Positions 51,410-62,642 of a stretch of 64,000 nucleotides of DNA are shown piece after piece. Below the pieces are notes generated by a model that did no database searches, was not told where the DNA came from, and saw only the letters and a list, made by a program, of their open reading frames with translations. The position numbers were made by a program, and so were the translations under genes. Numbering within the stretch: the first letter of the stretch is position 1; each line of letters begins with the position of its first letter. The DNA comes from Robiginitomaculum sp. Lineage in GTDB: Bacteria > Pseudomonadota > Alphaproteobacteria > Caulobacterales > Maricaulaceae. The stretch is from assembly GCA_021776615.1 (NCBI GenBank), contig JAJFFO010000013.1:62001-126000 (forward strand), in the 5' to 3' direction.

Positions 51410-51442
51410 ATGCGGTTTAGCGACTCACCCTTATGCGAATAA
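51410..51442 (+). CDS. Possible 10-codon leader ORF overlapping ydbH start
   Basis: ATG with AGGA 7 nt upstream encodes MRFSDSPLCE and ends in a TAA at 51440-51442, overlapping the first codons of ydbH by 10 nt. The ydbH ATG itself has no clear ribosome site, so re-initiation from this ORF is plausible. Confidence 0.4.
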   Translation: MRFSDSPLCE

Positions 51443-54400
51443 TCCCCAAATTCGCGCGTACCATAGGCCGGAATATACTTCTTGCTTTGGCGCTTCTCCT
51501 TGTTTTGTTTTTTGGCCTTTGGCTAGGCCGCTTACCGTTGGCCGGTTTTGCCCTTGAACGTGCGGCCAAGGCACGCGGCTTGGTGGTCGATGTGAAGGTG
51601 GAAAGCCTTAGCACTAAAGGCGCGCGCCTTGGCGATATCGTTTTTGGCGATGAGCTAAGCATTGAAAGTGCGCAGTTTAGCTGGGCATTGGCCGGATTAC
51701 GCCGCAAAGAGATTATCAGCATAGACATAATAGGCGCCAAGTTCGGCGCCCAAAGGCAAAACGGCCAGACCAAAGTCGCGGGGTTCGATCTTGCCAACCT
51801 CTCCCCAAGCGGCAAAACGCCATGGGATATTGGTGCGATCAGCATTATCGATAGCCAATTGGCGCTTGATATTGCGCCGGGACGCATTCTGGCCGACTTC
51901 GACGCGCAAAAGCTGCCAGACAATGGCTGGGCGTTTACCGCCAACGCCAAACCAGCACGGCTGGAAAGTAAAGCCTGGTCGGCATTGATAGACACCATCG
52001 CCTTCAAAGGCGAATATGCCGACAACAGGCTGAATGCTGACGCCGAAATAGAATATCGAGACGCCAAATGGGTTGCCGAAAAGGCGGGCGAATTTGCCAT
52101 ACAAAATGGCAGGGTTTTCGTGAAATGCGATTGCGATTTCCAAAACCCAAATCAACTGGCAGGGAAACTTGAGGCGCAGGCAGATTTTCAAAACTTGAAC
52201 ACCCCTTATCTGGCCGCCGAAAGCGCGGCGATTTCTTTGCAATTTGATGGCGCTACCGACCCCAATGACCTGCTTGGTGCGTTACAGGCACAGATGAGCA
52301 TCAGCGTGCAAATTGGCCGCGCCCACGCCGAACCTACGCCTCTCAAACAGGCGGTAAGTTCACAAAAAATGCCGGAATTTGTTTTACCTTTTGCCAATGC
52401 ACTGGTTGAAAACCTCGGCACGGCGGCAAGTTCATTTGACGTGGCTACTGATATAAAGTTGAACGCGCAAAATGGGCAGTTCACCCTCTCCACCCCGACC
52501 ATCAGCATGACGAGCATCGCGGAACCAAAAAGCGCCGTGCATATTGGCAGCCTGCAGGCAGCGTACGCGCCAAAAACCAAAGATTGGGATTTTTTCGGTA
52601 ATGCAGAAGCACAACTTTCCGGTTTTGGACACCTGCAGTTAGACGCTTTGGCGCTGCGCCACGACCAAATCGGGGCTTTGCAATTGCAGATGGCAGAAGC
52701 GCAAACGGCGGTGCAGACCGGTGATCAGAAATTGGCTTTGCAAACCCGCAATATTAGCGGGCAGTTCGCCAGCAATGCGACCACGCTGGCTGGCGATATA
52801 GACGCGCAATGGAATGGGCAGATCGGCGGTGTAAACTTTACCAAGGCGCGACTGAAAGGCCCGCTTCAATTGGTTAAATCTGGGTCGGATTGGCAAGGTT
52901 TCGTCCCAGGACCTTCGCTTTCCTTTGCCGCCGACCGGCTGCGCATGGGGCAATGGCGCGCCTCGAAGGCTTTGGCGACCCTAAGGCCACAAAAATCGCG
53001 CACCGGCGCAAAGCCGCTTTTTACCTATGACAAGGATGGGTTTTTGCTCACAGCCAATATTGCAAGTGTTGCCGCCAATGTGCGCAAAGCCAATGTCGCA
53101 ACCCTGGTGGTTGAGATACGCGGCAAAGATGGCAATGGCACATTACGGCTCAAACCAAATAGCACCGCCAGCGCCACGATAGATATGGCCAGACTTAGCT
53201 TGGATTTACCCAGCAAGCAGAGTAAATATGTGCGCATTGGCAAATTTTCCGCCGCGGCCTACGCCAAAAACCGGCGCTGGCGTGGCAATGGCCGATTAGG
53301 CACGGTGCAATACCATAGCGATGGCATGCCCGCGCGGGTGAATGGCGAAAACACGCCATATAAATTCTCTTTTGATAAAACCGGCTTGGATATGTGGGCG
53401 AAAAAGCTGGACCTGAAAGTAACCTCCACAGACCGGCCGGCAATATTCCCACCGCTGCAGCTGGTACTCGACACCGTGCTTTCCCATGGCGGCGTCACCG
53501 GTATTGGCGAAATTCGGCTGGCCCGCGACGGCACCTATCTTTCTGATTTGAGCCTGGCGCACAATTTGGCCAGCGCCCGTGGCACCGCCATTGGCGGGGT
53601 TGAGCGCTTGGCACTCGCGCCCAATGGACTGGAACTGACCGAATTATTGCCCGCCTTTGAGGGCCTGGTTGCTAATGCGCAAGGCCAACCATCTGGCGTA
53701 TTTCTGGCCAAATGGGACGCTACGGGTCTTGGCGAAACCAAGGGTAGTGTTTCTCTCAACGGCATGAATTTCGACATTTTACTGGGCCGGGTGGAGAATG
53801 TGACCGGCGAAATACGGTTTTCGTCGCTCTTGCCTTTGACCACCAAGGGCAGTGCCGAAATACAAATTGGCACGCTTGACCCCGGCATGGCCCTTAACGA
53901 CGGTGAACTGGTCTTTGCCTTGGTTGAAGATGGTGGCCTGCGCATCGACCGGGCGGAATGGCCTTTCGCTGGCGGACAATTGCGCGTCGCCCCGATGCTG
54001 TGGAAGATTGGCGGCCTGCACCAAAATGTTGAATTACAGGTGGAAAATGCCGATTTGCTCGAGCTTTCCGGCCTGTTTGGCTTTGCTGACCTGAGCGCGC
54101 AAGGCAAGCTTAGCGGCAGCATACCCGCCGAGATTACCGAAACCAGCGTTCTTGTGCGCGGCGGCATATTGCGCGCACCGGCGCCGGGCATATTGCGCTA
54201 TCAAAGCGCCGTCGGTGACAATGCCGCTGGTGCGGCACCGCAAGCCAAAATGGCCTTTGATGTATTGAAAAACCTGCATTTCAACCGGTTGGAATTACGT
54301 CTGGATGGCGATGTTGGTGGGCGTATGGAGGCAGGTTTGGTGTTGGAGGGTAATAATCCGGACGTGGTTTTCGGCATACCATTTCGTTTGAACATCACCA

Positions 54401-54507
54401 CTTCCGCAGAATTTTCACGCCTCGCAGCCCAGGCCAGTCAGGGTTTGCGCATTGGCCAGAACATTCAGCGCATGATCGAAAATGGCGGTTTGCAAGCAGA
54501 TGAATAA
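51433..54507 (+). CDS. ydbH: YdbH-family AsmA-like intermembrane lipid transport protein
   Basis: A 1024 aa protein: a single N-terminal inner-membrane helix (about 14-33), then a very long, repetitive beta-rich region of the AsmA/bridge-like superfamily, ending in the YdbH domain (GGILRAPAPGILRYQSAV and LEGNNPDVVFGIPFRLNITT). In E. coli YdbH, with TamB and YhdP, spans the periplasm to carry phospholipids to the outer membrane; YnbE and YdbL help. The same trio lies here, which supports the call. See leader ORF at 51410. Confidence 0.88.
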   Translation: MRIIPKFARTIGRNILLALALLLVLFFGLWLGRLPLAGFALERAAKARGLVVDVKVESLSTKGARLGDIVFGDELSIESAQFSWALAGLRRKEIISIDIIGAKFGAQRQNGQTKVAGFDLANLSPSGKTPWDIGAISIIDSQLALDIAPGRILADFDAQKLPDNGWAFTANAKPARLESKAWSALIDTIAFKGEYADNRLNADAEIEYRDAKWVAEKAGEFAIQNGRVFVKCDCDFQNPNQLAGKLEAQADFQNLNTPYLAAESAAISLQFDGATDPNDLLGALQAQMSISVQIGRAHAEPTPLKQAVSSQKMPEFVLPFANALVENLGTAASSFDVATDIKLNAQNGQFTLSTPTISMTSIAEPKSAVHIGSLQAAYAPKTKDWDFFGNAEAQLSGFGHLQLDALALRHDQIGALQLQMAEAQTAVQTGDQKLALQTRNISGQFASNATTLAGDIDAQWNGQIGGVNFTKARLKGPLQLVKSGSDWQGFVPGPSLSFAADRLRMGQWRASKALATLRPQKSRTGAKPLFTYDKDGFLLTANIASVAANVRKANVATLVVEIRGKDGNGTLRLKPNSTASATIDMARLSLDLPSKQSKYVRIGKFSAAAYAKNRRWRGNGRLGTVQYHSDGMPARVNGENTPYKFSFDKTGLDMWAKKLDLKVTSTDRPAIFPPLQLVLDTVLSHGGVTGIGEIRLARDGTYLSDLSLAHNLASARGTAIGGVERLALAPNGLELTELLPAFEGLVANAQGQPSGVFLAKWDATGLGETKGSVSLNGMNFDILLGRVENVTGEIRFSSLLPLTTKGSAEIQIGTLDPGMALNDGELVFALVEDGGLRIDRAEWPFAGGQLRVAPMLWKIGGLHQNVELQVENADLLELSGLFGFADLSAQGKLSGSIPAEITETSVLVRGGILRAPAPGILRYQSAVGDNAAGAAPQAKMAFDVLKNLHFNRLELRLDGDVGGRMEAGLVLEGNNPDVVFGIPFRLNITTSAEFSRLAAQASQGLRIGQNIQRMIENGGLQADE

Positions 54508-54596
54508 AATGCCCTGCCGAAGCTATCGTAAGTTTTTGCTGTTAATCTGCGGTTCAACTTGGGTATGATGAGATGATATTCAGAAAAGGAACACGC

Positions 54597-54806
54597 ATGA
54601 TCACCAGCCGCCCCGCCTTTGCCTTCGCCGCAATGGTTGCTCCGATGTCTCTGTTCATGAGCGGCTGTATGCCGACCGTGCGCATTGAGGCCCCTGATCG
54701 GCCCATTGAGATTAATTTAAATGTCAAAATTGATCAGGAAGTTCGCGTCCGCCTCGACAAGGACGTGGAAGACCTGATCACCAGCAATCCGGACCTGTTC
54801 AAATGA
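54597..54806 (+). CDS. ynbE: YnbE-like outer-membrane lipoprotein
   Basis: A 69 aa lipoprotein: signal peptide with lipobox ending FMSGC (lipidated Cys), then TVRIEAPDRPIEINLNVKID, the YnbE signature, and a short acidic C-terminus. AAAGGAAC precedes the ATG. In E. coli YnbE forms an intermembrane bridge with YdbH. The stop overlaps ydbL by 4 nt. Confidence 0.88.
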   Translation: MITSRPAFAFAAMVAPMSLFMSGCMPTVRIEAPDRPIEINLNVKIDQEVRVRLDKDVEDLITSNPDLFK

Positions 54807-55162
54807 CCAAGATATTTCCTCGCTTTTTTCTAGTAGTTTTCATTATCGCCGCTTTTGGTATGGCATTTTCAGCCCAAGCGGATGCCACAGCGGACGTCAT
54901 CGCCAAAGCCAAAATTGACCGCGTCATTGGCGAACGCACTGACGGCTATATTGGTGTGATCAACGGCACTGCCAGCGCCGATATTGAGCGCGCGGTACGC
55001 GAAACCAATATTAAACGCAAAGCGGTCTATGGCGATCTTGCCCGCGCCCGCAATGCGACTATCGAAGTGATCGCCGCCCTGACCGGTGAAAAACTCATTA
55101 CCCGCACGCCAAAAGGTCAAATGGTCATGGATGCCAATGGTAATTGGCGCGCAGTCCCGTAA
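54803..55162 (+). CDS. ydbL: YdbL (DUF1318) periplasmic protein
   Basis: A 119 aa protein with a signal peptide (cleavage after AQA), then AKAKIDRVIGERTDGYIGVI, and a C-terminal VIAALTGEKLITRTPKGQMV segment typical of DUF1318. YdbL is reported to modulate the YdbH-YnbE complex. ATGA overlap with ynbE shows coupling. Confidence 0.88.
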   Translation: MTKIFPRFFLVVFIIAAFGMAFSAQADATADVIAKAKIDRVIGERTDGYIGVINGTASADIERAVRETNIKRKAVYGDLARARNATIEVIAALTGEKLITRTPKGQMVMDANGNWRAVP

Positions 55163-55321
55163 ATGCGGCCATAAATAAAGCCTGTGACCATGTAAGCAGT
55201 CGCGGTGCAAACAAAATTTAAACGTGGAAAAAAGGCAGTTTTTCACCAAACCTAGAAAATTATTGCGTAGCGATCTATTCTCGATACATTATGCAAGTCG
55301 TAAATGAGGAGACATCAGGCC

Positions 55322-55522
55322 ATGACCATACTCAAATCCACACAAATACTATCTGATTCAACGCAATCATTTGAACATGCGGTCGCCAATGGCGTTGAAC
55401 GTTTTTCGCAAACCGTCAAACATGTGCGCTCGGCCAGCGTCAACCATATGTCGGTCACCGTTAAAGACGGCACCGTCGATAAATTTCGCGTCAATTTGCA
55501 GATCACATTTGAAGTCAAATAA
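55322..55522 (+). CDS. Dodecin-family protein lacking the flavin-stacking Trp
   Basis: A 66 aa protein matching the dodecin beta-alpha-beta-beta pattern: SFEHAVANGVERFSQTVKHV, then VSVTVKDG-like, ending FRVNLQITFEVK. Canonical dodecins have Trp in the segment between helix and second strand to stack the isoalloxazine ring; here the corresponding position reads RSASVN and no Trp occurs in the protein. GGAG lies 10 nt before the ATG. It stands alone, and converges with the GNAT gene. Confidence 0.85.
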   Translation: MTILKSTQILSDSTQSFEHAVANGVERFSQTVKHVRSASVNHMSVTVKDGTVDKFRVNLQITFEVK

Positions 55523-55557
55523 AAGCGATTAGTTTAAGCCAAAACAGATAAACCTGA

Positions 55558-56049
55558 CTATGCTTCATCTAAATTTGTCACAAAAAATTTCTGCATCAAC
55601 AGTCGCTTATCGCCTTGTTTGTAGTAATTTTTTTTGTGTTCTAGTTCGGTGAACCCAAAGTCACGGTAAAGTGATATCGCAGAAACATTGTCAGGTTCAA
55701 CTGTAAGACGGCACCGATCCATACTTGTGCTAATACAAAAATCATCACACGCTTTCGTCAGTGCTCTGCCTATCCCCTTTCCTTGATGTTCGGTTGATAC
55801 ACCGAGGGAGAGAAGCCATGCATTTTTGGTCAAAGCCTCAATGCCCAAAAGGGTATAACCTATAACATTGCCGCTCTTTTCACATACAAAAAAAGAATTT
55901 GGAAATAAATCTATATATTGTCGGATAGAGAAATTTTCATAACCGCCTTCTCCGAATAATTTTTTATCGAGATCTACGATTTGTTGTACGTCTTTATAAC
56001 TTACTTTTCTTATAGACGTTATCTGCGAATAACTTCTCTGCATACTCAT
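55558..56049 (-). CDS. GNAT N-acetyltransferase (RimI-like), AT-rich
   Basis: A 163 aa acetyltransferase with the CoA-binding loop VSTEHQGKGIGRALTKAC (Q/RxxGxG/A) and the C-terminal VEPDNVSAISLYRDFGF strand-helix, similar to RimI. The gene is visibly AT-richer than neighbours, and its first 56 nt overlap the 3' end of the next gene upstream on the same strand, implying one transcript. A start two codons later (MQRSYSQ) has better spacing from GAGAG. Confidence 0.85.
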   Translation of the reverse strand: MSMQRSYSQITSIRKVSYKDVQQIVDLDKKLFGEGGYENFSIRQYIDLFPNSFFVCEKSGNVIGYTLLGIEALTKNAWLLSLGVSTEHQGKGIGRALTKACDDFCISTSMDRCRLTVEPDNVSAISLYRDFGFTELEHKKNYYKQGDKRLLMQKFFVTNLDEA

Positions 56050-56524
56050 CTCTCAAAATCAGCAAGTTTTTACGTTTCCGGTAAGCGTACCACACTTTGT
56101 GGAGCGCAAAAACAGAACGCCAAAAATGGCGTGATTCCTCTTGCAACAATTCAAATTTTTGAGTGTTTGGGTTATGCACTAAGATAAAAAACCTGTACGC
56201 AAACATTTTGTCTATAATTTCAATTTTAATAAAACCTAATTCGTATAAATGCGCCAACCGGTCGAAAAAAGAAAGAGATTGGATAATTTTTTGACGATCT
56301 GATTGGTCAAAGATTTTAATATTATTGTATAAGCGGCCTGTTGGTTCAAGCTCCACTTCAATTTCTATATTCTTGTTAACATCCTCAGAAAGTTTATCTA
56401 AAAATTGAGCCCTCGCTAATTTAGCTGAAAAGCGTGCCTGTATGCCAACAAAAAGCAAACCGAGAGCCGAAGTGAGTGCCGCAAAGGACGATATTAAAAA
56501 CTCTATTGAAAAACCGATGCCCAT
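55994..56524 (-). CDS. Hypothetical membrane-anchored protein, AT-rich
   Basis: A 176 aa protein with an N-terminal helix (EFLISSFAALTSALGLLFVG) and a charged helical cytoplasmic part (LSFFDRLAHLYELGFIKIEI, SRHFWRSVFALHKVWYAYR). No family recognised; a DUF4760-like resemblance is possible. GGCGGAG precedes the ATG. Forms an AT-rich pair with the GNAT gene it overlaps. Confidence 0.7.
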   Translation of the reverse strand: MGIGFSIEFLISSFAALTSALGLLFVGIQARFSAKLARAQFLDKLSEDVNKNIEIEVELEPTGRLYNNIKIFDQSDRQKIIQSLSFFDRLAHLYELGFIKIEIIDKMFAYRFFILVHNPNTQKFELLQEESRHFWRSVFALHKVWYAYRKRKNLLILRDEYAEKLFADNVYKKSKL

Positions 56525-56709
56525 TTAGTCTCCGCCTTTATATCTAAAGTCACCATACTCCTTACCCGACTTACGTAAAGCGATTCTGTTTCCATTATTA
56601 TGATACATTTACCCATTGAAACGCCTGCTCTAGCTGAAGCATTCCCTTGACGGATGTTCATCAGGAGCCAATCCTGTGAAAAAACTAATTTATATTTGAG
56701 GAGCACCCC

Positions 56710-57897
56710 ATGCCGCAAACCACCGATCCCGTCGTCATTGTTGGATATTCGCGCACCCCAATTGGTGGGTTGTTGGGCGAATTGGCCCCCTTAAGCGCCA
56801 ATGAATTGGGTGCCATTGCCATCAAAGCGGCGCTTGAAGACGCTGGTCTTGAAGGCGAAGCCGTCGAACAAGCCTTAATGGGCTGTGTTTTACCGGCCGG
56901 CCAAGGCCAAGCCCCGGCCCGCCAGGCTGCGCTCAAAGCTGGCCTTCCTATCCATGTGGAAGCCACCACGCTAAACAAAATGTGTGGCTCTGGCATGCAA
57001 GCGGCCATTATGGGCAATGATACGTTGTGCGCTGGCAATGCAGACATCCTCATTGCCGGCGGCATGGAAAGCATGACCAATGCCCCCCATATGCTGCCTA
57101 CTCACCGTGCCGGTTTCAAATATGGCCATGACCGGGTGCTCGACCATATGGCCCTTGATGGCCTTGAAGATGCCTATGCAAAAGCGCCAATGGGCAATTT
57201 TGCCGATATGGCCGCACAAAAATACCAATTCACGCGCGAAGATCAGGACGCCTATGCGCTAGAGACTTTGCGGCGTGCCCAATCGGCGGCGAGCGACGGC
57301 GCCTTCGCCCGCGAAACCACCCCCGTTACCATAAAAACCCGCAAGGGCGACATTGTAATGGACACCGATGAGTTGCCACGCAAAGCCATGCCGGAAAAAA
57401 TCCCGAAATTGCGCCCTGCCTTTAATAAAGACGGCACCGTCACCGCCGCCAATGCTTCGGCCATTTCCGATGGTGCCGCGGCTATGGTGCTCATGCGTCT
57501 TTCGGAGGCACAAAAGCGCGGGCTTAAGCCCATCGCCAAAATTGTCGCCACCGCCGCCCACGCCCAGGAACCGGAATGGTTCACCTCTGCGCCAGTTCCG
57601 GCCATGAAAAAGGTATTGGAAAAAGCCGGGTGGACAACTGAAGATGTTGATCTGTGGGAAATCAACGAGGCCTTTGCCGTTGTGCCGATGATCGCCATGA
57701 AAGAAATGAATCTTTCGCACGATATCATCAATGTGAATGGCGGTGCTTGTGCACTGGGCCATCCCATTGGCGCTTCAGGGGCCCGGATTATGGCTACATT
57801 GATGGGGGCGCTGGAAAACCGTAACCTCAAAAAGGGCGTTGCCAGCCTGTGTATTGGCGGCGGAGAAGCCACAGCCATTGCGCTGGAAATGATGTAA
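56710..57897 (+). CDS. Acetyl-CoA C-acetyltransferase (thiolase)
   Basis: A 395 aa thiolase. Nucleophile Cys92 in NKMCGSGMQAAIMG, His in GACALGHPIGASGA and second Cys in SLCIGGGEA. Closest in length and motifs to biosynthetic/degradative acetoacetyl-CoA thiolases (AtoB/PhaA type). GAGGAG lies 6 nt before the ATG. Physiological direction (ketone-body breakdown, PHB or leucine breakdown) not visible from neighbours. Confidence 0.94.
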   Translation: MPQTTDPVVIVGYSRTPIGGLLGELAPLSANELGAIAIKAALEDAGLEGEAVEQALMGCVLPAGQGQAPARQAALKAGLPIHVEATTLNKMCGSGMQAAIMGNDTLCAGNADILIAGGMESMTNAPHMLPTHRAGFKYGHDRVLDHMALDGLEDAYAKAPMGNFADMAAQKYQFTREDQDAYALETLRRAQSAASDGAFARETTPVTIKTRKGDIVMDTDELPRKAMPEKIPKLRPAFNKDGTVTAANASAISDGAAAMVLMRLSEAQKRGLKPIAKIVATAAHAQEPEWFTSAPVPAMKKVLEKAGWTTEDVDLWEINEAFAVVPMIAMKEMNLSHDIINVNGGACALGHPIGASGARIMATLMGALENRNLKKGVASLCIGGGEATAIALEMM

Positions 57898-57909
57898 AAT
57901 CCATGTGAA

Positions 57910-58608
57910 TTATGCCGGAGGAATCGCCTGTTTTATGGTGATGCCCTCCGGCGATACCGCACAGCCATAACATAGAATTTCGACCCCGGCAGCTTTAGCT
58001 TTTTCCAACGCCGCGCCATAAGCGGGGTCAATATCAATCGCCGGGGAAAACGCTACGCAATCGGCCCGTTGCACCACAAACAAAACCACCGCACGATTGC
58101 CTTTATGCGCCTCATCGGCGAGATCAGCCATATGCTTTGCCGCGCGGGCGCTTACCGAATCTGGAAATTCTGCCAACCCCGATGTGCGCGACAAGGTCAC
58201 GCTTTTTACTTCGACAAAGCAGGGTGGCCGGTTGTCATTTTGCAGCAAAAAATCCACACGGCTATTAGCGCCATATTTCACTTCGCGACTAAGCTGCGCA
58301 TAGCCATTTAACGGCGCTATGACACCAGCCTTTATGGCTTCTTCGGCCAATGCGTTGGCCCGGCCCGTATGCACGCCGACCAAAGCGCCATCCGCCTCAA
58401 TCAGTTCCAAACTGAACGGTAATTTGCGTTTGGGGTTTTTGCTGTTCGAAATAAAAGCCCGCGCGTACGGCGTGTTCAGCCCCAACATCGAGCCGGGATT
58501 GGCGCAATGCACGGTCATTTCCTCGCCATTGGCCAGACGCACATCGGCCAGGAATCGCTTATAGCGCCTGATCAGTTGGCCTTCGACGAGTGTGTTCGAG
58601 AATCGCAT
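57910..58608 (-). CDS. sfsA: DNA/RNA nuclease SfsA
   Basis: A 232 aa protein of the sugar-fermentation-stimulation family, now regarded as a PD-(D/E)xK-type nuclease. Motifs: GQLIRRYKRFLADVRLANGE, VHCANPGSMLGL, the SRVDFLLQ and CFVEVKSVTLSR catalytic core. Converges with the thiolase gene (12 nt between). Confidence 0.93.
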   Translation of the reverse strand: MRFSNTLVEGQLIRRYKRFLADVRLANGEEMTVHCANPGSMLGLNTPYARAFISNSKNPKRKLPFSLELIEADGALVGVHTGRANALAEEAIKAGVIAPLNGYAQLSREVKYGANSRVDFLLQNDNRPPCFVEVKSVTLSRTSGLAEFPDSVSARAAKHMADLADEAHKGNRAVVLFVVQRADCVAFSPAIDIDPAYGAALEKAKAAGVEILCYGCAVSPEGITIKQAIPPA

Positions 58609-58745: not shown

Positions 58746-58833
58746 GCGGGCGTGGCGGAATTGGTAGACGCACAGGACTTAAAATCCTGAGATCTGTTAG
58801 ATCGTGGGGGTTCGATTCCCCCCGCCCGCACCA
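58746..58833 (+). tRNA. tRNA-Leu (UAA), CCA encoded
   Basis: The acceptor stem GCGGGCG (58746-58752) pairs with CGCCCGC (58823-58829), followed by discriminator A and encoded CCA. The anticodon arm is CAGGA-CTTAAAA-TCCTG, giving anticodon UAA, and a long variable arm typical of leucine follows. TTCGATTC forms the T-loop. 88 nt in total. Confidence 0.97.
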
Positions 58834-60755: not shown

Positions 60756-61238
60756 CTATTGCGGCGTAATCAGGTGCAAAGGCAGTGAAGTTGTGTCTTT
60801 AACCGAGCGGATAATAATGCGCGAGACGGCGGTTTGTACAAGATCCATAGACAAAATCTCATCGCGTAGAAAATCATCATAGGTGTGCATGTCGGTGGTA
60901 ACGATTTTCAAAACATAGTCCACAGCGCCGGTAACGGTTGCACAAGCCAGCACTTCTGGCAGCTCTTTGACCGCCGCTTCAAATTTGGCCAGGTTAGAGC
61001 GCGTTGGCCGCTCCAGCTTAACCGACACAAACACTTCAAAATTCAACCCCAAGAGATCACGGTCCAACACCGTCACCTGACAGGCAATAATCCCGGCTTC
61101 TTCAAGGCGTTTAATCCGTCGCCAACATGGTGAAGACGACAAACCAACTTTAACCGCGACATCCGCCACCGACAGGGAGGCATCGCCCTGCAAAAGTCGC
61201 AGAATTTTAATATCAATTTCGTCGATTTCGTTGCTCAC
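60756..61238 (-). CDS. bkdR: Lrp/AsnC-family regulator of bkd operon
   Basis: A 160 aa feast/famine regulator: N-terminal winged HTH (LSVADVAVKVGLSSSPCWRR) and C-terminal RAM ligand domain (ACATVTGAVDYVLKIVTTDM). Start GTG (VSNEIDEIDIKIL) with GGGAG 8 nt upstream; a longer ATG frame is unlikely. It diverges from the branched-chain dehydrogenase genes. BkdR of Pseudomonas is an Lrp-type activator of bkd responding to branched-chain amino acids; the same role is inferred. Confidence 0.9.
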   Translation of the reverse strand: MSNEIDEIDIKILRLLQGDASLSVADVAVKVGLSSSPCWRRIKRLEEAGIIACQVTVLDRDLLGLNFEVFVSVKLERPTRSNLAKFEAAVKELPEVLACATVTGAVDYVLKIVTTDMHTYDDFLRDEILSMDLVQTAVSRIIIRSVKDTTSLPLHLITPQ

Positions 61239-61298
61239 CAGCTTCACTCCCAAGGTGATCAAAATTATTTTACCCGCGCTATTGCACTTTTTAGAGGA

Positions 61299-61316
61299 CA
61301 AATGCAATCATATTTG
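61299..61316. promoter_or_regulatory. Candidate BkdR site: CAAAT-N8-ATTTG
   Basis: Inverted repeat with 5-bp arms, located between bkdR and bkdA1. Its right arm continues as ATTTGC, shared with the sites at 61340 and 61373. Assigned by position and repeat pattern only. Confidence 0.4.
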
Positions 61317-61339
61317 CCATAATACCGGTGGAAATTGCC

Positions 61340-61352
61340 ATTTGCTGCAAAT
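61340..61352. promoter_or_regulatory. Candidate BkdR site: ATTTGC-T-GCAAAT
   Basis: Perfect 6-bp arms about one central base, 49-61 nt upstream of the bkdA1 start. Further ATTTGC copies at 61312-61317 and 61373-61378 lie 28 and 33 bp away, close to three helical turns, as expected for multimeric Lrp binding. Confidence 0.55.
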
Positions 61353-61400
61353 AAGAGGGCATAAATACCCCCATTTGCGGTCTCATAGAAGAGTTTATCG

Positions 61401-62642
61401 ATGACACATGTGCCTTCAAGCAATATGTCTGGTTTCGCTGTACCCGAGCCTAATGCACGGCCCGGCGACACACCAGATTTTTCGCACCTTAAGCTAGATC
61501 AAAACAACCTTGCACCAAAACCGGACCCCATTTGCGAAGCGTCCGAAACTTATGGGCTCGCCAATTCCCTGGTGCGTGTTTTGGATGATGAAGGGCAGGC
61601 ACAAGGCCCCTGGAATCCGCAGCTTTCGCCAAAAGTGCTGCGCGAAGGCCTGCATTTAATGCTGAAAACCCGCACCTATGATGCGCGCATGTTCAAACTG
61701 CAACGGCAAGGCAAGATGTCGTTTTATATGAAATCGCTTGGCGAGGAGGCGATTTCCGTCGCCGCCGGCATGGCATTGCGGGACGAAGACATGCTGTTCC
61801 CATCCTACCGCCAGCAAGGCCTGCTGTTCGCCCGAGGGCACGACATGGTTGAAATGATGAATCATTGCCTGTCAAACGCCAAGGACCCGCTTAAAGGCCG
61901 CCAATTGCCAGTGCATTACACATGGGCAAAAGGGAATTTTTTCTCCATCTCCGGCAATCTTGGCACCCAATTTCCGCAGGCCGTAGGGTGGGCAATGGCC
62001 AGCGCCTCCCGCGCCGAATCAGCAGTCACCGCTTCGTGGATTGGCGATGGCACCACCGCCGAGGGCGATTTTCACGGCGCTTGCACCCTGGCCAGCGTCT
62101 ATAAAGCGCCGGTAATCTTGAACGTCGTCAATAACCAATGGGCGATATCTTCATTTGCCGGTATTGCCGGCGGCAATAATGCCACCTTTGCCGCCCGCGG
62201 CATTGGCTATGGACTGGCGACCTTGCGGGTTGATGGCAATGACTTTCTGGCGGTCTATGCCGCAACCCAATGGGCGGCGGATCGGGGACGCGCCGGGCAT
62301 GGGGCGACACTGATTGAAACCGTGACCTACCGCGCTGATGCGCACTCTACCTCAGATGACCCCCATAGATATCGCCCCAAGGAAGAGGCTGCCGCCTGGC
62401 CGCTTGGCGACCCTATTGAGCGATTAAAGGCACATCTGATCGCGCTTGGCGAATGGGACGACGACCGCCATCAGGCCCTTGAAGAAGCACTGACAAAAGA
62501 AGTGTTGGCCTCCTACAAAAAAGCCGAAAGCAATGGCACGTTGCGCGATGGCCCCCTATCGCCAATTCCTTCAATGTTTGAGGATGTATTTGCCGAGCAA
62601 CCTTGGCATTTACGCCGTCAACGTCAGGACTTGGGGGTTTAA
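61401..62642 (+). CDS. bkdA1: Branched-chain 2-oxoacid dehydrogenase E1 alpha
   Basis: A 413 aa thiamine-diphosphate-binding subunit. TPP motif GDGTTAEGDFHG...NN (with VVNNQWAISS), and RxxRxxHS-like loop TYRADAHSTSDDPHRY bearing the phosphorylation-loop region. It pairs with E1 beta to decarboxylate 2-oxo acids from Val, Leu and Ile. AGAAGAG lies 7 nt before the ATG. The E1 beta ATG follows the stop with no gap. Confidence 0.95.
   Translation: MTHVPSSNMSGFAVPEPNARPGDTPDFSHLKLDQNNLAPKPDPICEASETYGLANSLVRVLDDEGQAQGPWNPQLSPKVLREGLHLMLKTRTYDARMFKLQRQGKMSFYMKSLGEEAISVAAGMALRDEDMLFPSYRQQGLLFARGHDMVEMMNHCLSNAKDPLKGRQLPVHYTWAKGNFFSISGNLGTQFPQAVGWAMASASRAESAVTASWIGDGTTAEGDFHGACTLASVYKAPVILNVVNNQWAISSFAGIAGGNNATFAARGIGYGLATLRVDGNDFLAVYAATQWAADRGRAGHGATLIETVTYRADAHSTSDDPHRYRPKEEAAAWPLGDPIERLKAHLIALGEWDDDRHQALEEALTKEVLASYKKAESNGTLRDGPLSPIPSMFEDVFAEQPWHLRRQRQDLGV

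Follow-up and report, generated by a model that had tools for sequence, protein, structure and literature searches.

A dodecin-family protein lacking the flavin-stacking tryptophan in Robiginitomaculum sp. and its place in a wider alphaproteobacterial clade

The dodecin locus

Dodecin is a storage cage for vitamin B2, and its family is usually regarded as one of flavin buffers. The gene considered here lies in a 64,000-nucleotide stretch of a Robiginitomaculum sp. contig (JAJFFO010000013.1, assembly GCA_021776615.1), referred to below as the window, in which the following features, numbered from its first letter, were recognised:

55307..55311, plus strand: Shine-Dalgarno-like AGGAG, 10 nt 5' of the ATG (sequence)
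55322..55522, plus strand: dodecin-family coding sequence, 66 aa plus stop (PF07311, invariant M1, AlphaFold2 model)
55430..55438, plus strand: codons S37-A38-S39, in place of W-F-E of flavin dodecins (sequence, structural alignment)
55487..55489, plus strand: codon R56, in place of Gln of flavin dodecins
55558..56524, minus strand: AT-rich insert with a GNAT acetyltransferase and an unassigned ORF (Acetyltransf_1, 64.1 bits; GC)
56710..57897, plus strand: acetyl-CoA C-acyltransferase, a thiolase (Thiolase_N/C; TIGR01930, 416.7 bits, cut-off 240.55)

The encoded protein, MTILKSTQILSDSTQSFEHAVANGVERFSQTVKHVRSASVNHMSVTVKDGTVDKFRVNLQITFEVK, has 66 residues and is a dodecin, as the original prediction had proposed: it matched PF07311 (Dodecin) over profile positions 1-63 of 64 with an E value of 4.6e-18 and a score of 65.7 bits, the cut-off being 22.5. 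The NCBIfam DodecBact equivalog gave 42.5 bits, below its threshold of 75. The initiating Met1 is invariant among 33 aligned members of the S-A-x clade defined below, and this was the single dodecin found in the window's genome assembly, which is 70.7% complete.

Directly upstream lies a ydbH-ynbE-ydbL (DUF1318) set at 51433-55162 (Pfam); most of the genus loci examined have, in this place, two genes identified by eye as mnmA and an FAD oxidoreductase-like gene. In the window, the dodecin and the thiolase are parted by the AT-rich insert (GC 0.36-0.37, versus 0.54-0.57 over the thiolase), and the gap between the two genes measures 95-171 nt in 13 of the 15 further genus copies. The sole tRNA gene of the window, tRNA-Leu (taa), was located at 58746-58833 by ARAGORN, and further on, at 60756-62642, an Lrp-like regulator and a dehydrogenase E1-like gene were recognised by eye, with similar genes following the thiolase at two other loci (L119 and L194). 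A promoter and terminator scan of 55100-58000 returned counts near the shuffled mean, from which the operon structure is not readable.

Orthologues with 77-86% identity were found in 14 of the 17 further genus genomes searched; 15 of the 18 genus genomes, the window's included, have the gene, and one of them (G779) has two copies. These lie in two similar mnmA-dodecin-thiolase blocks (G779:C55 and G779:C1; L102 and L115), and as the contamination estimate of this genome is 6%, the double block may reflect two strains. For the 120 pairs of 16 genus-level sequences, the mean pN was 0.120, the mean pS 0.720 and the median pN/pS 0.167, and the median dN/dS, computable for 63 pairs only, was 0.072; the gene is maintained by purifying selection. 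No viral copies of the dodecin were confirmed.

Predicted fold and replacement of the pocket residues

The AlphaFold2 monomer, built with 57 sequences, had a mean pLDDT of 94.8 and a pTM of 0.77, and its predicted order of strands and helix (E4-13, H17-29, E35-48, E51-64) is the beta-alpha-beta-beta order of dodecins. All 29 Foldseek matches at E ≤ 0.001 were dodecin-family structures, the best being 2vxa (TM 0.97), with 3onr_A at 0.86, and 66 residues of the model could be aligned on bacterial flavin dodecins with an rmsd of 0.7-1.1 Å. The VIA-align rows below the dodecins (Z of 6.2 and less; IgaA, FtsA and others) were set aside as a common arrangement and not kinship. A profile search of the PDB gave 20 distinct sequences at E ≤ 0.01, which by name are flavin dodecins, their mutants and 3onr, the solved structure of a Trp37-less dodecin (Rv0379, "calcium dodecin"); among these 20, no structure from the Trp39 or S-A-x side described below was recognised by name.

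In the flavin dodecins, according to a published account (PMC7414021), each pocket stacks two flavins between symmetry-related tryptophans. In the window protein, V35-R36-S37-A38-S39-V40 aligned on L-R-W-F-E-V of the Halorhodospira dodecin 2vxa (HMMER), and the structural alignment, with its constant offset of one relative to the Thermus dodecin, placed Ser37 (codon 55430-55432) at Thermus Trp38. The replacement of the flavin-stacking tryptophan claimed at the outset is therefore confirmed, and the protein has no further tryptophan, nor any aromatic residue at positions 37-39. It shares the Pfam family and the predicted fold with the flavin dodecins (Thermus TTHA1431, Halorhodospira 2vxa, M. 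tuberculosis Rv1498A and Streptomyces 6r1e/6ri3), but W37, F38, R44, G45, Q56 and G62 of these proteins are each replaced in it; Gln56, presumably a flavin contact, has become Arg56. Arg45 and Arg65 of the Thermus protein, both the subject of mutant structures and presumably CoA-binding residues, correspond to Ser44 and Glu64, so that neither of these Thermus-type FMN/CoA residues is kept, and Thr46 stands at Halobacterium Glu45, the site of a mutant structure.

The co-occurrence of residues, scored over 222 distinct sequences (64 with Trp37 and 158 without), shows that these positions change together. Gly45 was found in 64/64 sequences with Trp37 versus 1/158 without it, Arg44 in 63/64 versus 1/158, Gln56 in 63/64 versus 2/158, Phe38 in 62/64 versus 0/158 and Gly62 in 62/64 versus 0/158. 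The joint replacement of Trp37, Phe38, Arg44, Gly45, Gln56 and Gly62 in the window protein makes the loss of the classical flavin sandwich well supported, and the central inference of the original prediction stands on this point.

The residues that took their place are themselves conserved in what we call the S-A-x group, comprising sequences with Ser (once Gly) at position 37 and Ala or Cys at position 38, of which the window protein is a member. Arg56 is present in 88/88 genes of this group, Asn58 and Thr62 each in 98% of its 82 distinct sequences, and when 33 members were aligned, every one had R56, with S37, A38, N58 and T62 each conserved in 90% or more; the pocket-side residues rank among the most conserved positions of the clade. 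Residue 39 is variable (S/N/Y/H/F). Arg56 is not peculiar to the group, being found in most of the remaining Trp37-less sequences irrespective of the residues at 37 and 39. Since the model is a monomer, the pocket geometry was deduced from the strand pattern, in which 37, 39, 41 and 56, 58, 62 alternate with hydrophobic residues at 38 and 40 and at 57, 59, 61 and 63; this alternation suggests that positions 37, 39, 41, 56, 58 and 62 would face the side of Trp37 and Gln56.

Relatives without Trp37

The window protein had been presented as if it were singular, and a survey of the class does not bear this out. An even draw of 385 genomes contained 61 with a dodecin and 69 distinct sequences, two of them partial; of the 67 scorable ones, 28 have Trp37, nine have Trp39 and 30 have neither, so that 39/67 lack Trp37. 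Among the 30 with neither, 14 have a tryptophan at some other aligned position, and the remaining 16, the window protein included, have none. With so many relatives devoid of Trp37, the window protein is to be regarded as an intact member of a non-classical branch and not as a one-off.

After the addition of family, order and phylum samples and the removal of repeats, 231 genes were classified: 64 Trp37, 88 S-A-x, 41 Trp39, 14 Gxx, 13 [IV]AE, eight SIY, one other and two partial, proportions that are not frequencies because the later samples were drawn toward the window's relatives. Members of the S-A-x group come from three families of the same order, namely the window's own (f1), a second (f3) and, with the single genome G547, a third (f175); literature searches of CC-licensed papers found no account of this clade. 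Trp39 loci (L033, L138, L153 and others) come from many families of the phylum sample and mostly have Arg or Lys at position 56, and the Gxx group (L052, L055, L060), Trp37-less with a motif that is mostly G-[LIV]-E and with Arg56, occurs in several families of the class. Both a Trp37 and an S-A-x dodecin are present in four genomes of the window's family (G533, G558, G731 and G791), a coexistence that suggests different roles, with neither type standing in for the other in those genomes; the near-complete G386 has the S-A-x type only.

The tree of 220 sequences and 62 columns is unrooted, and the direction of change cannot be read from it; 107 of its 217 inner branches are open. A single branch separates the Trp37 sequences from all the rest (SH-aLRT 97). 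Together with one SIY row, the S-A-x sequences make up a set of 83 (SH-aLRT 98), nested in a set of 94 (SH-aLRT 97) whose further members are the remaining SIY rows, three Trp39 rows and a sequence of none of these types. By this placement, the Trp-bearing rows nearest to the window protein have Trp39 and not Trp37. The whole Trp37-less side with S-A-x, Trp39, SIY and Gxx comprises 144 of the 220 distinct tree sequences, most of them with Arg56, and no solved structure was recognised as belonging to it. The Trp39 dodecins of Proteobacteria, mostly [GS]-[AVC]-W-[VI], are tree neighbours of the S-A-x clade and, like the window protein, have Arg56 (31 of 41 genes) and Asn58 (62% of distinct sequences), but their tryptophan lies two residues further on, whereas the window protein is without any. 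The [IV]AE group, which is Rv0379-like, is split off by a branch of its own (SH-aLRT 97), away from the S-A-x clade, and shares a set of 76 with the Trp37 sequences (SH-aLRT 95). The clade-wide motif, together with the purifying selection described above, rules out a lone or recent loss of the tryptophan and decay of the gene.

The gene block and the possible ligand

Within 1.5 kb downstream and in the same orientation, a thiolase was found for 65/88 S-A-x genes and 1/8 SIY genes, and for 0/64 Trp37, 0/41 Trp39, 0/13 [IV]AE and 0/14 Gxx genes, whose loci mostly offered about 1-1.5 kb of downstream DNA. These counts were taken from the classification of 231 genes, since neighbour clustering, which sometimes picked antisense ORFs, undercounts the thiolase. 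In the second family, a thiolase follows within 1.9 kb in 22/30 S-A-x genes, with none in the available DNA of the other 8/30, and the upstream neighbour is often another gene, peptidase-like by eye (17 loci). Such an arrangement speaks for a protein that binds coenzyme A or acyl-CoA and works with the neighbouring thiolase, CoA having been one of the ligands offered originally. However, mnmA, named from sequence and not by family search, and the thiolase lie on one strand within 6 kb in 50/62 family genomes without an S-A-x dodecin and in 38/50 with one. Where a genome had been searched for mnmA and thiolase alike, the dodecin proved as well linked to the former (within 3 kb, 47/54 genes) as to the latter (within 2 kb, 45/54). 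In the control survey, 13/58 S-A-x dodecins had no thiolase within 2 kb. For five of these, a thiolase does adjoin, four (G780, G803, G804, G808) having been outside the genome draws and one (G814) having been missed at E ≤ 1e-130; the remaining eight (G533, G632, G672, G731, G791, G792, G807, G817) showed no thiolase in the available DNA, some of them near contig ends. All of these eight except G817 were also recorded as keeping mnmA with no adjoining thiolase found, contig ends possibly hiding some. The control in family genomes without an S-A-x dodecin weakens the pair as functional evidence and indicates that the dodecin sits in an old mnmA-thiolase gene block. The adjacency is probably a shared old gene order and not a demonstrated partnership, although a functional link is possible. 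As the Thermus arginines are Ser44 and Glu64 in the window protein, a Thermus-like mode of CoA binding is disfavoured as well, and we consider the CoA reading very improbable.

The explanation that we prefer, while giving it no better than an even chance, is that the window protein is an intact subunit of a dodecin-fold cage, presumably a dodecamer, which lacks the Trp37 sandwich and has a pocket for a non-flavin ligand, probably anionic or polar. With Ser37, Ala38 and Ser39, and with Arg56 in place of Gln56, the tryptophan sandwich cannot form. By strand alternation, the strand with S37, S39 and N41 and its neighbour with R56, N58 and T62 would present these residues on the same face; they would then create a polar, positively charged pocket, and such an arginine-lined pocket would most likely accept a small molecule other than flavin, probably anionic or polar. 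Two observations temper this picture: the presence of Arg56 in most other Trp37-less sequences means that R56 may plug the pocket and not touch the ligand, and the variation of residue 39 across the S-A-x clade argues against a tight contact at that position.

A ligand-free or metal-type cage, in which R56 fills the old flavin site and the role is structural or ion-binding as in Rv0379, is an alternative that we regard as rather doubtful, though worth keeping in mind. The calcium dodecin Rv0379/SecE2, solved as a 12-chain structure under that title (3onr), resembles the window protein in having no Trp37 and in carrying Ala38 and, at the same column, Arg56. It differs in having Val37 and Asp44 where the window protein has Ser37 and Ser44: Asp44 is found in 13/13 distinct [IV]AE members and in 3onr, whereas Ser44 is found in 76% of the S-A-x clade. 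The Rv0379-like group is also placed elsewhere in the tree, with the Trp37 sequences (3onr itself was not placed), and the conservation of the pocket-side residues in the S-A-x clade makes an empty cage less probable. Continued flavin binding by the window protein, weaker or in a different mode, agrees with the retained dodecin fold and with the Thermus W38F mutant, whose crystals are still those of a dodecin (2vyx, 12 chains), but the positions that mark the Trp37 class are jointly replaced and no aromatic residue is left at 37-39, and this reading seems unlikely.

For the family as a whole, since 39/67 of the class-draw dodecins are without Trp37 and the pocket signature is replaced with it, flavin storage should not be read into the annotation "dodecin", and for much of this well-known nanocage family no ligand was found. 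Tentatively, the side with the S-A-x, Trp39, SIY and Gxx sequences might form a separate ligand class, whose cages with arginine-lined pockets would serve as stores or buffers of a metabolite other than flavin, probably an anion; if this were true, the alphaproteobacterial S-A-x clade would be its Trp-free extreme.
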